Shown: positions 27,319 through 34,397 of the stretch, in pieces
How the letters are laid out: each line of letters opens with the position of its first letter
How positions within the stretch are numbered: the first letter of the stretch is position 1
DNA from: Actinokineospora bangkokensis
GTDB lineage: Bacteria > Actinomycetota > Actinomycetes > Mycobacteriales > Pseudonocardiaceae
Assembly (NCBI RefSeq): GCF_001940455.1
Contig: NZ_MKQR01000026.1
Coordinates: 678,351-742,350, forward strand
Length of the DNA: 64,000 bases
Direction: 5' to 3'
Program-made: the position numbers and the translations under genes
The notes under the pieces: model-generated
Databases searched by the model: none
What the model was told of the DNA's origin: nothing
The model's input: only the letters and a program-made list of their open reading frames with translations

Positions 27319-28686
<1,368 letters not shown>

Positions 28687-28704: not shown

Positions 28705-29373
28705 ATGAGCGCACTCGTGCTGGCCTGCGGAAACGCGACAGGTACCGCACGTCCGCCGGTGATCACCGACGGTGAGGTGGTCGAACTGGGCGCCCGGCCG
28801 GGGCGCGGCGCGCTGGACCCGCTGCTCAGGGCGTTCGACGGCGGCCGGTTGGTGGTGCTGGGCACCGACGCCGACCTGGCCGCGGTGGTGCTGCGGTTGA
28901 TGCACAAGTCCCGGCTCGGTGACGTGGCCGTCGGGTACGTGCCGGACGACCCGGGGTCACGGGTGGCGGAGGTGTGGGGGTTGCCGCGCGACCGCGACGC
29001 GCAGGCGCGGGTGGCGTTCGAGGGCGAGGTGGACGCGGTCCCGCTGGTCCGCGACGACGCCGGGGGCTGCCTGGTGGGGCACGGGGTGATCGACCAGCCG
29101 CAGGGGGTCGTGTACTGCGACGACGCGGTGGCGCTGCGGGGCAGGGCGCGGCGGATCGAGGTGGCGCCGGACCTCGACGGCGGCCCGGGGCTTGTGGCGA
29201 CGGTGACCCGCGGCGGGTTCTTCGGGCGCAAGGTGGAGCGGTTCCACTCCCGGGCGATGCAGGTGGGGTGCCTGCGGACGCGGTTCGAGCGCGACGGCGT
29301 GCCCACCGACGCGGCCAAGTGGACCTGGTACCGGCACACCGAGGACCTGCGGGCGGTGCGCGGGGTGCTGTGA
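28705..29373 (+). CDS. Conserved hypothetical protein, divergent from purA
   Basis: 222 residues, cytosolic, no membrane segment. It begins MSALVLACGNATGTARPPVI, contains LLRAFDGGRLVVLGTDADLA and RLGDVAVGYVPDDPGSRVAEVWGLP, and ends with FHSRAMQVGCLRTRFERDGV. From memory it matches the protein encoded beside purA in M. tuberculosis (Rv0358), about the same length. The G-T-D-A and GYVP segments resemble the nucleotide-binding part of lipid/diacylglycerol kinases, but no kinase catalytic motif is clear. Function unknown. Confidence 0.8.
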   Translation: MSALVLACGNATGTARPPVITDGEVVELGARPGRGALDPLLRAFDGGRLVVLGTDADLAAVVLRLMHKSRLGDVAVGYVPDDPGSRVAEVWGLPRDRDAQARVAFEGEVDAVPLVRDDAGGCLVGHGVIDQPQGVVYCDDAVALRGRARRIEVAPDLDGGPGLVATVTRGGFFGRKVERFHSRAMQVGCLRTRFERDGVPTDAAKWTWYRHTEDLRAVRGVL

Positions 29374-29463: not shown

Positions 29464-30324
29464 GTGAAGCGAGTTGGTTGGGCGCTCGCGCTGGCCGGGG
29501 CTGCGGCGGTTGCCGTCGTGGCGGCCCCCGCCAGCTCGGCCGCCACGACGGACACCATCTCCAGCGACCGGGCGACGGTGCGGGAGTACCCGGGCCGGTT
29601 GGTGCTGGCGAACGGGGCGGCGGGCGACCGGGTCGAGCTCACCGCGTACTGCGGGGACTGGGTGCGCATCCGGGTCACCTCGACCGCGCACGTGATGGCG
29701 ACGCCGGTGGGGTGGGTGCTGCGGTCGAACCTGACGAGGGGGTCGCAGTCCGGCGGCCTGTCGGGGGTGCCGGAGCAGTGCGGCACCGACGCCGACCGGT
29801 GGCGCGACTGGGTGGGGGCGATCAACGCGCCGTTCCACTCGCTGCGCAAGACCACCGCGGACGGGGTCACCGGGTGGCGGCGGATCACCTTCGGCACCCG
29901 GGTGACCCTGGCCGCGGGTGAGCAGTGCACGCCGTCGCTGAACTACACCCGGGTCACCGACGGGCCGGACGTGGTGGACCCGGCGCAGCGGGTGGCGCTG
30001 GACCTGGACACGGTGTCGTACCGGTACGTGACGCAGGACGGGTCGGTCGCCCTGGTGAGCGCGCAGCGGGCGGGCGGCAGCACCTACGGGGTGTGGTCGT
30101 TCGTGCCGTCGTCGTGCGTGCAGCCCCGGGGCCGCGAGCACGTGTACTTCGACGAGCCGGTGGTGCAGCTGACGGACATCAGCGGGCTCCAGACCGGCAC
30201 CGCGTACTCCGACGCGACGATCCGCTCGCGCGGGTGCTCGGCGGGGCTGATCAGCCCGACCCGGCCCGCGTTCGGGTACTGGCCGGACCCGCAGCCCGCC
30301 AACCGGCCCGCGTGCCCGGTCTAG
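29464..30324 (+). CDS. Secreted protein of unknown function
   Basis: 286 residues. Sec signal peptide (MKRVGWALALAGAAAVAVVAAPASSAA) then a mature protein with about six Cys residues, beginning with an SH3-like stretch (VREYPGRLVLANGAAGDRVELTAYCGDWVRIRVT) and a beta-rich C-terminal part (YRYVTQDGSVALVSAQ). No catalytic motif or family I recognise. GTG start at 29464 gives the positively charged signal peptide. The mature protein may be a cell-wall or environment-facing binding protein; that is inference. Confidence 0.7.
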   Translation: MKRVGWALALAGAAAVAVVAAPASSAATTDTISSDRATVREYPGRLVLANGAAGDRVELTAYCGDWVRIRVTSTAHVMATPVGWVLRSNLTRGSQSGGLSGVPEQCGTDADRWRDWVGAINAPFHSLRKTTADGVTGWRRITFGTRVTLAAGEQCTPSLNYTRVTDGPDVVDPAQRVALDLDTVSYRYVTQDGSVALVSAQRAGGSTYGVWSFVPSSCVQPRGREHVYFDEPVVQLTDISGLQTGTAYSDATIRSRGCSAGLISPTRPAFGYWPDPQPANRPACPV

Positions 30325-30471: not shown

Positions 30472-31101
30472 ATGAGCAAGTTCCGGGCGCTCGCGAGCGC
30501 CCTGCTGCTGTCCGCCGCGATGGTCATCGGCCTCGCGGGCACCGCCGCCGCGACCCCGCCGGGGATCCCGTCCGAGGCGACCGCGCGGTCGTACCTGTCG
30601 GGCCTCACCGTGCGCGCCGCGGGCTCGATGACCGGGTACTCCCGCGACCTGTTCCCGCACTGGATCACCATCTCCGGGGCCTGCAACACCCGCGAGACGG
30701 TGCTCAAGCGGGACGGGTCCTCGGTGGTCACCGACTCGTCCTGCGCGGCCGCCTCGGGCCGCTGGTACAGCCCCTACGACGGCGCGACCTGGTCGGCGGC
30801 CGCGGACGTGGACATCGACCACGTGGTGCCGCTGGCGAACGCGTGGCGCTCCGGCGCGGCGTCGTGGACCACGGCCAAGCGCCAGCAGCTGGCCAACGAC
30901 CTGAGCGCGCCGCAGCTGATCGCCGTGACCGACAACGTCAACCAGGCCAAGGGCGACCAGGGCCCGGAGTCCTGGAAGCCGCCGCTGACCTCGTACTGGT
31001 GCACCTACGCGAAGATGTGGGTCGCGGTGAAGGACAAGTACGCGCTGTCGGTGACCTCGGCGGAGAAGTCGGCGCTGTCGTCGATGCTCGACCGCTGCTG
31101 A
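30472..31101 (+). CDS. Secreted HNH-type nuclease (DUF1524-like), copy 1
   Basis: 209 residues. Signal peptide of about 27 residues (MSKFRALASALLLSAAMVI, cut at AAA-TPPG). The catalytic core has DVDIDHVVPLANAWRSGA with D116-H117, then TDNVNQAKGDQGPESWKPP, the His-Asn-x-Asp layout of DUF1524/GmrSD C-terminal HNH nucleases. Four Cys (CNTRET, SSCA, WCTY, final DRC) are all kept in the copy at 31277 and probably form two disulfides. Strong GGAGGA ribosome site. Likely a secreted DNA- or RNA-degrading enzyme; nuclease activity is inferred from family motifs. Confidence 0.88.
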   Translation: MSKFRALASALLLSAAMVIGLAGTAAATPPGIPSEATARSYLSGLTVRAAGSMTGYSRDLFPHWITISGACNTRETVLKRDGSSVVTDSSCAAASGRWYSPYDGATWSAAADVDIDHVVPLANAWRSGAASWTTAKRQQLANDLSAPQLIAVTDNVNQAKGDQGPESWKPPLTSYWCTYAKMWVAVKDKYALSVTSAEKSALSSMLDRC

Positions 31102-31107
31102 CACCGC

Positions 31108-31139
31108 GGGCGGAGGGGCCCTCCCGGGCCCCTTCGCCC
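31108..31139 (+). terminator. Hairpin between the two nuclease genes
   Basis: GAGGGGCCC and GGGCCCCTTC (31113-31121 / 31126-31135) pair, extended by GGGC/GCCC, 6 bp after the first nuclease stop. Confidence 0.6.
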
Positions 31140-31276
31140 GTTCGGCCGTCGACCAAAGTTCCGACTCTCCCCGTATTCGCCGTCGATCGCCCGTGTGTCA
31201 CCCGAAGGTATTGCCACCGCCACACGCCTCCGTCAGGGTCGTGATCGTTCCACGAACCGCATGAGGAGGAAGTGGC

Positions 31277-31915
31277 ATGTTTTCGTCGGGGAAACTGCGC
31301 ACTGCCGGTGTGACGGTCCTGCTGACCGCGGGCGCCCTGGTCGGCGCCGCGGGGACGGCCTCGGCCACCCCGCCGGGCATCCCGAGCCCGGCCACGGCGG
31401 CCTCGGAGCTGAGCGGGCTGACCGTGGCCGCGGACGGCTCCATGGACGGCTACTCCCGGGACGAGTTCCCGCACTGGCACACCGTCGAGGGCTCCTGCGA
31501 CACCCGCGAGGAGGTCCTCAAGCGCGACGGCGACGGCGTGTCGGTCGACTCCTCGTGCAAGGCCACCGCGGGCAGCTGGACCAGCCCGTACGACGGGGAG
31601 ACCTGGACCGAGACCTCGGACGTCGACATCGACCACATGGTGCCGCTGGCCGCCGCGTGGCGCTCCGGGGCCGCGGGCTGGACCACCGCCGAGCGCGAGG
31701 CGTTCGCCAACGACCTCGACGGCCCGCAGCTGTGGGCGGTGACCGACAACGTCAACCAGTCCAAGAGCGACCAGACCCCCGACCAGTGGAAGCCGCCGTC
31801 GGAGTCGGCCTGGTGCGAGTACGCCAGCGCGTACGTCCGCGTCAAGCACACCTGGGACCTCACGGTCACCTCCGCCGAGAAGGCCGCCCTGTCCGACATG
31901 CTGGGGACGTGCTGA
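31277..31915 (+). CDS. Secreted HNH-type nuclease (DUF1524-like), copy 2
   Basis: 212 residues. Signal peptide of about 30 residues (MFSSGKLRTAGVTVLLTAGA, cut at ASA-TPPG). Its mature part aligns without gaps over 182 residues with the enzyme at 30472, roughly two thirds identical by eye. D119-H120 lies in DVDIDHMVPLAAAWRSGAAG and the TDNVNQSKSDQTPDQWKPP motif follows, with the Lys-Gly-Asp of copy 1 read as Lys-Ser-Asp. The ATG at 31277 has GAGGAGGA upstream. A small gene overlaps its stop codon. Confidence 0.88.
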   Translation: MFSSGKLRTAGVTVLLTAGALVGAAGTASATPPGIPSPATAASELSGLTVAADGSMDGYSRDEFPHWHTVEGSCDTREEVLKRDGDGVSVDSSCKATAGSWTSPYDGETWTETSDVDIDHMVPLAAAWRSGAAGWTTAEREAFANDLDGPQLWAVTDNVNQSKSDQTPDQWKPPSESAWCEYASAYVRVKHTWDLTVTSAEKAALSDMLGTC

Positions 31916-32163
31916 GCGAATACGTCTCCCCCCTGACCGCGCCGCCCGGCGGCCTGATGACCGAGGACGCGGGCGCCATCACCGGCGACCTCGACCTCCG
32001 CAGCACCTGCACCGCCGACGGCGTCGTGCAGGTCAAGGTCCGCTACACCGGCGCCGAGGACTGGTACCGCGTCCGCGGCGGCCAGTGCAAGCTGTCCGAC
32101 CCCGCCGACCACGGCGCCGTCCACGCCCTGCTCGTCGGCGTCCTCAACCGCCCGGCGGGCTGA
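31909..32163 (+). CDS. Small protein coupled to the second nuclease
   Basis: 84 residues. The frame opens with GTG at 31909, overlapping the nuclease stop (GTGCTGA), with GGGGA at 31903-31907 as ribosome site, and ends with TGA at 32163. Nearly all third codon positions are G or C, which argues strongly for a real gene. No signal peptide; two Cys (RSTCTADG, GGQCKLSD) and a WYRVRGGQCKLSD core. Function unknown. A cytosolic partner or inhibitor of the secreted nuclease is possible by analogy with barnase-barstar, but there is no sequence evidence for it. An internal ATG at 31957 is an alternative start. Confidence 0.65.
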   Translation: MLSEYVSPLTAPPGGLMTEDAGAITGDLDLRSTCTADGVVQVKVRYTGAEDWYRVRGGQCKLSDPADHGAVHALLVGVLNRPAG

Positions 32164-32170
32164 ACCCCCA

Positions 32171-32207
32171 GGTCAGGCCGCACCCGCCCCTCGGGTGCGG
32201 CCTGACC
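32171..32207 (+). terminator. Perfect 16-bp terminator-like hairpin
   Basis: GGTCAGGCCGCACCCG (32171-32186), a 5-nt loop, then its exact inverse complement (32192-32207), beginning 8 bp after the stop of the small gene. No T tract. Confidence 0.8.
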
Positions 32208-32278: not shown

Positions 32279-33055
32279 ATGGTGCTGACGCGAGCGGCGT
32301 GGACGACGGCGAAGATGTTCACCTCGCCCTACCTGGTCACCGGCCTGCTGCTGGGCGGCGCCGCACTGGCGTGGCTGGCCCTGCGCCTGGCCGACCACCG
32401 GCACTGGCCCCGCCTGCCCACCGCCGTCGCGGGCCTGGGCGCCGCACTCGCCATCGCCGTCACCCTCTGCCGGGGCGGCAACGACATCTCCGCCACCACC
32501 GCCGCCGCGGGCACCCTCTGCACCCTCAACGGCCCCTCGTGGTCCGGCCCCCTCCAACTGCTCAACCTCGCCATGCTCGCCCCGTTCGCCGCCGCCGCCA
32601 CCCTCGCCACCCACCGGCCCTGGGCCGTCCTCGCGGCGTCGGCGACCCTCAGCGCGGCCATAGAACTCACCCAGACCCTCACCGCGCGAGGACTGTGCGA
32701 AACCGAGGACTTCGCCAACAACACCACCGGCGCCGCCCTGGCCGTCCTCGCCGCAGCCCTCCACCTCCGCTGGACGACCCACCCGCGCGGGCGGGGCGGG
32801 CCGGGCGAGGCGGGTGGTGCCCCGAGGGGCACCACCCGGGGGGATCAGAGGCCGATCGCCTGGTGGGCGGCGGGGTCGGAGTCGGCGAGGAAGGTGGCGC
32901 AGCGGTCGTACTCCTCGGTCTCGCCGATGGCCTTGGCGGCCTTGGCGAGGGCGCCGAGGGAGCGGAGGAAGCCCTGGTTGGGGCGGTGGTCCCAGGGGAT
33001 GGGGCCGTGGCCCTTCCAGCCGGAGCGGCGGAGCTGGTCGAGGCCGCGGTGGTAG
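32279..33055 (+). CDS. VanZ-like membrane protein with run-on 3' end
   Basis: 258 residues as an open frame. Residues 1-180 are a VanZ-like membrane protein: helices at about 14-40 (TSPYLVTGLLLGGAALAWLAL), 45-65, 90-115 and 120-150, with ASATLSAAIELTQTLTARGL and CETEDFANNTTGAALAVLAA, the ELxQ/D-x-x-x-N features of the family. After residue 180 (about 32820) the frame runs on through a strong hairpin and 210 bp antisense to the DUF3151 gene before a stop. The last 75 residues are probably not conserved; the stop may have been lost. Role in cell-envelope stress unknown. Confidence 0.75.
   Translation: MVLTRAAWTTAKMFTSPYLVTGLLLGGAALAWLALRLADHRHWPRLPTAVAGLGAALAIAVTLCRGGNDISATTAAAGTLCTLNGPSWSGPLQLLNLAMLAPFAAAATLATHRPWAVLAASATLSAAIELTQTLTARGLCETEDFANNTTGAALAVLAAALHLRWTTHPRGRGGPGEAGGAPRGTTRGDQRPIAWWAAGSESARKVAQRSYSSVSPMALAALARAPRERRKPWLGRWSQGMGPWPFQPERRSWSRPRW
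32811..32838. terminator. Strong bidirectional terminator hairpin inside the VanZ-like frame
   Basis: CGGGTGGTGCCCC (32811-32823), a 2-nt centre, and GGGGCACCACCCG (32826-32838) form a perfect 13-bp stem. It starts 7 bp after the minus-strand DUF3151 stop codon and is within the run-on part of the VanZ-like frame. Confidence 0.8.
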
Positions 33056-33252
33056 CCGGTGCGGGCGTAGGCGTACGCGGTGACGTCCTGGCCGTCGGCG
33101 AGGGCCTGCTCGGCGAGGGCGGCCCAGGCCGCGGAGAAGTCGGGGGCCCGCTTGATGAGGTCGACGGGGTCGGTGCCCGCGTCCAGCGCGTCCTGCAGCT
33201 CGGCCCGCTCCGGCAAGCGCGTGGGGTCCGGTCCGCCCAAGAGGTTCTGCAT
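32845..33252 (-). CDS. DUF3151 family protein
   Basis: 135 residues, cytosolic. It matches the actinobacterial DUF3151 family: MQNLLGGPDPTRLPERAELQ, RAPDFSAAWAALAEQALADG, YARTGYHRGLDQLRRSGWKG and PIPWDHRPNQGFLRSLGALA. In M. tuberculosis the corresponding gene (Rv0360c, from memory) also sits between purA and fba, as here. Function unknown; possibly linked to glycolysis by constant neighbourhood. ATG at 33252. Confidence 0.88.
   Translation of the reverse strand: MQNLLGGPDPTRLPERAELQDALDAGTDPVDLIKRAPDFSAAWAALAEQALADGQDVTAYAYARTGYHRGLDQLRRSGWKGHGPIPWDHRPNQGFLRSLGALAKAAKAIGETEEYDRCATFLADSDPAAHQAIGL

Positions 33253-33362: not shown

Positions 33363-34397
<1,035 letters not shown>

Follow-up and report, generated by a model that had tools for sequence, protein, structure and literature searches.

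What is a small cytosolic protein doing directly behind a pair of secreted nucleases? The question is raised by a locus in the window, the 64,000-nucleotide stretch of Actinokineospora bangkokensis DNA that was analysed, in which two paralogous nuclease genes are followed by a short gene whose start overlaps the stop of the second (Table 1). The order of nuclease and small gene is a conserved and apparently undescribed association. As to its meaning, we tentatively favour the reading in which the product of the short gene, 84 residues long, acts in the cytosol as an antagonist (inhibitor) of secreted PF07510-type nucleases, and give it somewhat less than an even chance.

Table 1. Features of the nuclease locus and its flanks in the window
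Feature	Coordinates	Strand	Remarks
purA, adenylosuccinate synthetase; left marker of the conserved locus	27319..28605	-	Pfam PF00709, 594 bits
222-aa ORF, function unassigned, adjoining purA	28705..29373	+	No Pfam match; tblastn matches in most fetched purA loci
Copy 1, predicted secreted PF07510 (GmrSD_C/DUF1524) HNH-type nuclease	30472..31101	+	209 aa; mature charge +1; KGD
Strong hairpin directly 3' of the copy 1 stop	31104..31145	+	RNA fold -39.4 kcal/mol, z -4.9
Copy 2, paralogous predicted secreted nuclease	31277..31915	+	212 aa; mature charge -18; KSD
Small gene, GTG start overlapping the copy 2 stop (GTGCTGA)	31909..32163	+	84 aa; no signal peptide seen
Strong hairpin directly 3' of the small gene	32171..32207	+	RNA fold -37.0 kcal/mol, z -6.1
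DUF3151 gene; right marker of the conserved locus	32845..33252	-	Pfam PF11349, 200.5 bits
Class II fructose-bisphosphate aldolase (fba); right marker of the conserved locus	33363..34397	-	Pfam PF01116, 274.6 bits

Both nuclease copies, inspected by eye, have a signal peptide ending in an AxA site and a mature part of 182 residues, and both mature parts carry four cysteines and a DIDH...N motif. BLASTP aligned them without a gap, with 134 of 207 residues identical (65%). They score 39.4 and 43.7 bits against PF07510 (GmrSD_C), for which the Pfam cut-off is 23, and I115-D116-H117 and N157 are invariant in 25 aligned nuclease rows, both copies included. On score and DH...N motif, both are predicted to be HNH nucleases of the PF07510 type. 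In a larger set of 124 nuclease rows, DH[VIM] was present in 123, and the four cysteines likewise in 123. The 65% identity and the PF07510 matches bear out the earlier note, made from the letters alone, which had described two adjacent gapless paralogues with four cysteines and an intact DH-N motif in mature parts of 182 residues.

That note had also called the nucleases duplicates. The paralogy is real, but the term is imprecise. In the tree of 124 nuclease rows, whose bootstrap was not fully settled, copy 1 groups with L009 from its own genus (support 100/76), and copy 2 groups with L008 and the second copies of L005 and L140, with support 100/97, in another genus. Nine loci had been dropped before the tree was made, four as repeats (L001, L002, L148, L149) and five as incomplete or broken (L003, L053, L093, L108, L127). 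A recent local duplication was rejected on this grouping, in which the copies fall into separate older lineages; they appear to be old paralogues. The glycine-to-serine change in the KGD motif of copy 2, from which a difference in activity had been proposed, is present. As a sign of altered activity it is weakened by its sporadic occurrence, in only 4 of the 124 rows: copy 2 itself and the second copy of L140, both within the copy 2 lineage, and the solitary nucleases L139 and L151. Strong acidity marks the copy 2 lineage (-17 to -20), whereas the first copies of tandem loci have charges of +1 to +3; no reason was found for this acidity beside neutral neighbouring copies.

Tandem nucleases precede the small gene at two loci, the window's own (L006) and L005 from another genus, and L140 has tandem nucleases without a small gene. 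Two further nucleases are encoded in the genome of the window, matched at E values of 2.8e-61 and 2.6e-55 against a level of 1e-109 for copy 1, and neither has a small gene nearby. A metagenomic protein of 330 residues (P0131), the one long homologue inspected, joins one truncated and one full nuclease unit in a single chain; it was considered as a fusion of nuclease and small protein and rejected, being made of two nuclease units. An ORF of 286 codons just 5' of copy 1 (29464-30324) has no Pfam match, and relatives of it are found in L001, L009, L012, L128 and L140.

The small ORF can be taken as a real gene, rather than a chance reading frame, from its G+C content by codon position (0.74/0.52/0.98), from the first search, which gave seven close relatives at 64-70% identity if the entry for the window itself is set aside, and from 1875 relatives found by profile at E values up to 0.001, among 2626 candidates. 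It comprises 84 codons counted from the GTG, in agreement with the earlier reading of the GTGCTGA overlap. The family has neither a Pfam entry nor a name. Among the 120 matches listed, the named relatives are hypothetical or uncharacterised, except for two UniRef clusters entitled 'DUF5753 domain-containing protein'. Pfam gave no match for the small protein of the window. When 96 members of the family were compared with Pfam-A at E values up to 1, ten weak and scattered families were returned (best E 0.039), and none of the 96 matched a known inhibitor at E 0.03 or better. Among PDB chains there was no match below E 1.2 for the family, and none up to E 10 with the single sequence.

A structural model of the small protein (mean pLDDT 95.3) predicts six strands and one C-terminal helix, with no clear match among solved structures nor any among viral models. 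Nearly all of the 50 Foldseek rows listed were weak matches to the peptide-binding beta-sandwich of Hsp70 (best E 0.29), and the best score in a second structure comparison (Z 4.2, rmsd 3.7 over 58 residues) was not above that of unrelated folds. Across 35 diverse members of the family the surface-type residues G14, T17, G21, G25, Y45, A48, Y52 and H71 are invariant. The protein has an invariant loop, GGVMTDEVG. The protein is acidic, with a mean net charge of -6.5 over 104 pairs. It is predicted to be cytosolic, having no signal peptide, whereas its partner nuclease has one.

The hairpin after copy 1 is a possible transcript end between the two copies, and that after the small gene a possible end of a transcript holding copy 2 and the small gene. 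Together they suggest two units, copy 1 alone and copy 2 with the small gene; the split is put no more strongly because a consensus scan of the locus detected no promoter and no T-tailed terminator. Between the small gene and the DUF3151 gene lies a VanZ-like ORF (PF04892, 32279-33055), which among the fetched loci was matched only in the window's own.

How widely the two genes are found together was determined in genomes of the same bacterial family and class. A single-sequence scan of genome contigs gave three loci, and an alignment query would have served better. In the family sample of 249 genomes, 95 gave 96 small-gene places by the first profile, all of which were fetched (L004-L099); 30 of these loci, and the class loci, span only 1.5 kb, and some others end at contig ends. 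At 83 of the 96 places a same-strand nuclease is found upstream. With distances taken to the first position of the small-protein profile, and not to an annotated start, the two genes overlap or are at most 10 nt apart in 42 of the 83, at most 30 in 51 and at most 200 in 74, and all are within about 1 kb. At the other 13 places the nuclease is downstream once (L004), on the opposite strand four times (L053, where it is broken, L062, L076 and L084), and not found eight times; these eight are five loci of genus g20 (L036, L037, L045, L046, L054), L082 of g25, and the partial matches L098 and L099.

A broader profile matched the small gene in 96 of the 249 family genomes, the extra one being a broken gene in G160; three of the 96 (G137, G160, G162) hold only broken or partial matches. 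The nuclease was found in 211. Both genes were found in 96 genomes, the nuclease only in 115, neither in 38, and the small gene only in none (Fisher p 1.7e-9, a value that ignores kinship). Absence here means 'not detected', since scoring was confined to the 7-22 best first-look candidates of each genome. Counted by genus, the small gene occurs in 24 and the nuclease in 39 of the 46 genera in the family sample. In the class sample of 394 genomes the small profile matched 30 and the nuclease 308, all 30 lying within the 308. Of 32 small-gene places in this sample, 30 had a locus and the other two were left out; the nuclease is upstream in 17 of the 30, always within about 1 kb and with divergent small proteins included, and no nuclease lies within 1.5 kb in the other 13.

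Most of the paired family loci sit in a purA-DUF3151-fba neighbourhood. Eight family pairs lie outside it, the marker queries giving no match there (L078, L080, L083, L087, L090, L093, L095, L096). The pair is also present in other families of the class (L100-L112, L121, L127) at what look like other loci, having no purA or DUF3151 marker match within a reach of only 1.5 kb. The earlier note had proposed co-occurrence in other actinobacteria as a check, and from the side of the small gene the outcome is positive, since every genome with a small-gene match carries a nuclease (96/96 and 30/30) and the pairing, usually in an operon-like layout, recurs in many genera. It had also held that frequent separation of the two genes would speak against a functional pair, and this was found in part: the nuclease often stands alone, and five g20 genomes have the small gene without a neighbouring nuclease. 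The partner is not required wherever the nuclease is present, as 115 of the 211 nuclease genomes show none.

Separation has occurred in both directions. Twenty nuclease loci without a neighbouring small gene were fetched, 16 of them from genomes lacking a full small gene and four from genomes with one elsewhere or a remnant; an intact small gene was found in none of the 20 loci. In 14 of them purA, the 222-aa ORF or DUF3151 stands beside the nuclease, which points to loss of the small gene from this same ancestral locus. In L146 (G160) an intact nuclease adjoins a small gene broken over three frames. Conversely, in L053 (G120) an intact-looking small gene faces a convergent nuclease broken over three frames, and the five g20 loci keep the small gene at the purA-DUF3151 locus with no nuclease there; g20 genomes keep two or three other nuclease matches. 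Among the 13 nuclease-less class loci, 11 belong to a stand-alone subfamily from Streptomyces-like genomes whose proteins start like [ST]WASWTT (L114-L120, L122-L125); L126 resembles it and L113 does not. The neighbours are varied at the ten of these 13 loci looked at. On the tree of 124 nucleases the paired or solo state changes at least 13 times, nine of the changes being forced by well-supported branches; the 13 are not to be read as a rate, because the solo rows were hand-selected.

The small gene is under purifying selection also where it has no neighbouring nuclease. Its median dN/dS is 0.15 in genus g8 (eight paired loci, 28 pairs), 0.15 in g20 (10 pairs), where no nuclease adjoins it, and 0.20 in eight stand-alone copies (28 pairs). 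Mirror-tree analysis of 46 loci gave no excess covariation between small protein and nuclease, with a partial r of 0.30 against 0.47 for the small protein and the 222-aa ORF, an unrelated neighbour. The tree distances of the 222-aa ORF follow the small protein more closely than do those of the nuclease. Charge complementarity between the partners was not found in 104 pairs (r -0.09).

If the small protein is an inhibitor, the nuclease would be made first and the small protein would be translated by coupling at the overlapping stop and start. It would bind any nuclease molecules that fold while still in the cytosol, whether these are exported later or not at all. Its role would be that of a backup and not of an obligate antitoxin, since the nuclease, with its four conserved cysteines, probably needs disulfides, and lineages could then lose the small gene. 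Where the neighbouring nuclease has been lost, the small protein could act in trans on remaining paralogues. The reading leads because known pairs have the nuclease gene first, because Nin provides a precedent, because the small protein is acidic and because it is found only in genomes with a nuclease. Counted against it are the 115 of 211 nuclease genomes without a small gene, L146, the g20 loci, the 13 of 30 class loci without a nuclease within 1.5 kb, and the lack of excess covariation and of charge complementarity. Ease of loss, persistence where the neighbour is gone, a stand-alone subfamily and the lack of specific co-evolution bring close behind it a second reading, in which the small protein has a cytosolic job of its own, such as regulation or ligand binding, and is simply expressed together with the nuclease, perhaps so that both act in the same circumstances, the layout having been inherited from an ancestral purA-nuclease-small-DUF3151 locus. 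This is quite possible, though short of probable. It agrees with the varied neighbours and the median dN/dS of 0.20 of the stand-alone subfamily in Streptomyces-like genomes, with the retention of the gene in the five g20 genomes, with the absence of excess tree covariation, and with surface-type residues that are invariant across 35 members and do not display the fast change of an arms race. It accounts less readily for the lack of any small-gene genome without a nuclease in either sample, for the 24 genera with the small gene beside 39 of 46 with the nuclease, and for the recurrence of the pairing in other families at what look like other loci (L100-L112).

The division into a secreted and a cytosolic partner, with putatively coupled translation, would also suit a chaperone dedicated to export, which would hold the nuclease in an unfolded state for Sec, any inhibition being a by-product, and the modelled fold carries the weak hint of Hsp70 mentioned above (best E 0.29; Z 4.2). 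Yet 115 of the 211 nuclease genomes export, or at least retain, the enzyme with no small gene detected, and the stand-alone copies would have no client beside them; we regard a chaperone as improbable. It is less probable still, indeed very unlikely, that two unrelated genes have simply been kept adjacent by vertical descent of a conserved locus. The purA-DUF3151-fba neighbourhood shared by most paired family loci would be explained in this way, but the pair also occurs away from it, both in the family and in other families of the class (where the loci reach only 1.5 kb), and overlap of stop and start or close spacing is seen in 42 of 83 pairs. To return to the inhibitor, a bolder version can be drawn, in which the small family is an undescribed class of inhibitors with a fold not among solved structures, which was ancestrally the second gene in many Actinomycetes beside an endonuclease-I-like nuclease and was later freed, in Streptomyces-like genomes and g20, to act as a brake alone or in trans. 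We consider this whole scenario rather unlikely.

Few cytosolic proteins are known to hold secreted nucleases in check; inhibition, if it occurs, would make this family, whose fold is unassigned, one of them. The pair would then be a simple two-gene system in which to ask why an internal partner is needed by a nuclease that should fold only outside the cell, and why half of the owners of the nuclease manage without one. Even if inhibition is wrong, a family of 1875 related proteins that has a close gene partner but no entry in Pfam is worth an assay.

The pair is named nowhere in the portions of the open-access literature searched, including PMC5758888, PMC3482391 and PMC5305256, but several known systems resemble it. 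By Pfam, the PF07510 domain is common to these nucleases and the GmrSD/BrxU type IV restriction enzymes (DUF1524). The copies have the fold of endonuclease I (EndA/Vvn) across most of their mature part; they differ from the Vibrio enzymes in identity, which is 13-18%, and in the four cysteines found in 123 of 124 rows. We know of no dedicated protein inhibitor of Vibrio EndA/Vvn.

The likeness to barnase-barstar proposed in the earlier note holds for the layout, a secreted nuclease and a small cytosolic partner with the nuclease gene first (PMC3482391). At the level of the proteins no likeness was seen: the nuclease here is a DNase-type HNH enzyme and not a barnase-type RNase, and the small family gave no sequence match to barstar, either in Pfam-A (96 members, E up to 1) or among PDB chains, and no clear fold match. 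Anabaena NuiA is a proteinaceous competitive inhibitor of NucA, a non-specific His-Me nuclease (PMC5758888); to it, too, the small family has neither a sequence match in Pfam and PDB nor a clear fold match. A further parallel in layout is NucA/NucB-Nin (ComI/ComJ) of Bacillus, in which Nin inhibits NucA and NucB in lysates (PMC5758888). The present pair differs in that its enzyme belongs to the PF07510 family, inhibition is putative, and the small family has no Nin match in Pfam or PDB and no clear fold match. In both, a beta-beta-alpha (His-Me) nuclease gene is followed by the gene for a small cytosolic partner (PMC5758888, PMC3482391). Nuclease first and inhibitor second is the order typical of exported toxins with immunity proteins and of ComI/ComJ (PMC3482391), and it is the order, with the partner adjacent and second, of 83 of the 96 family places and 17 of the 30 class loci.
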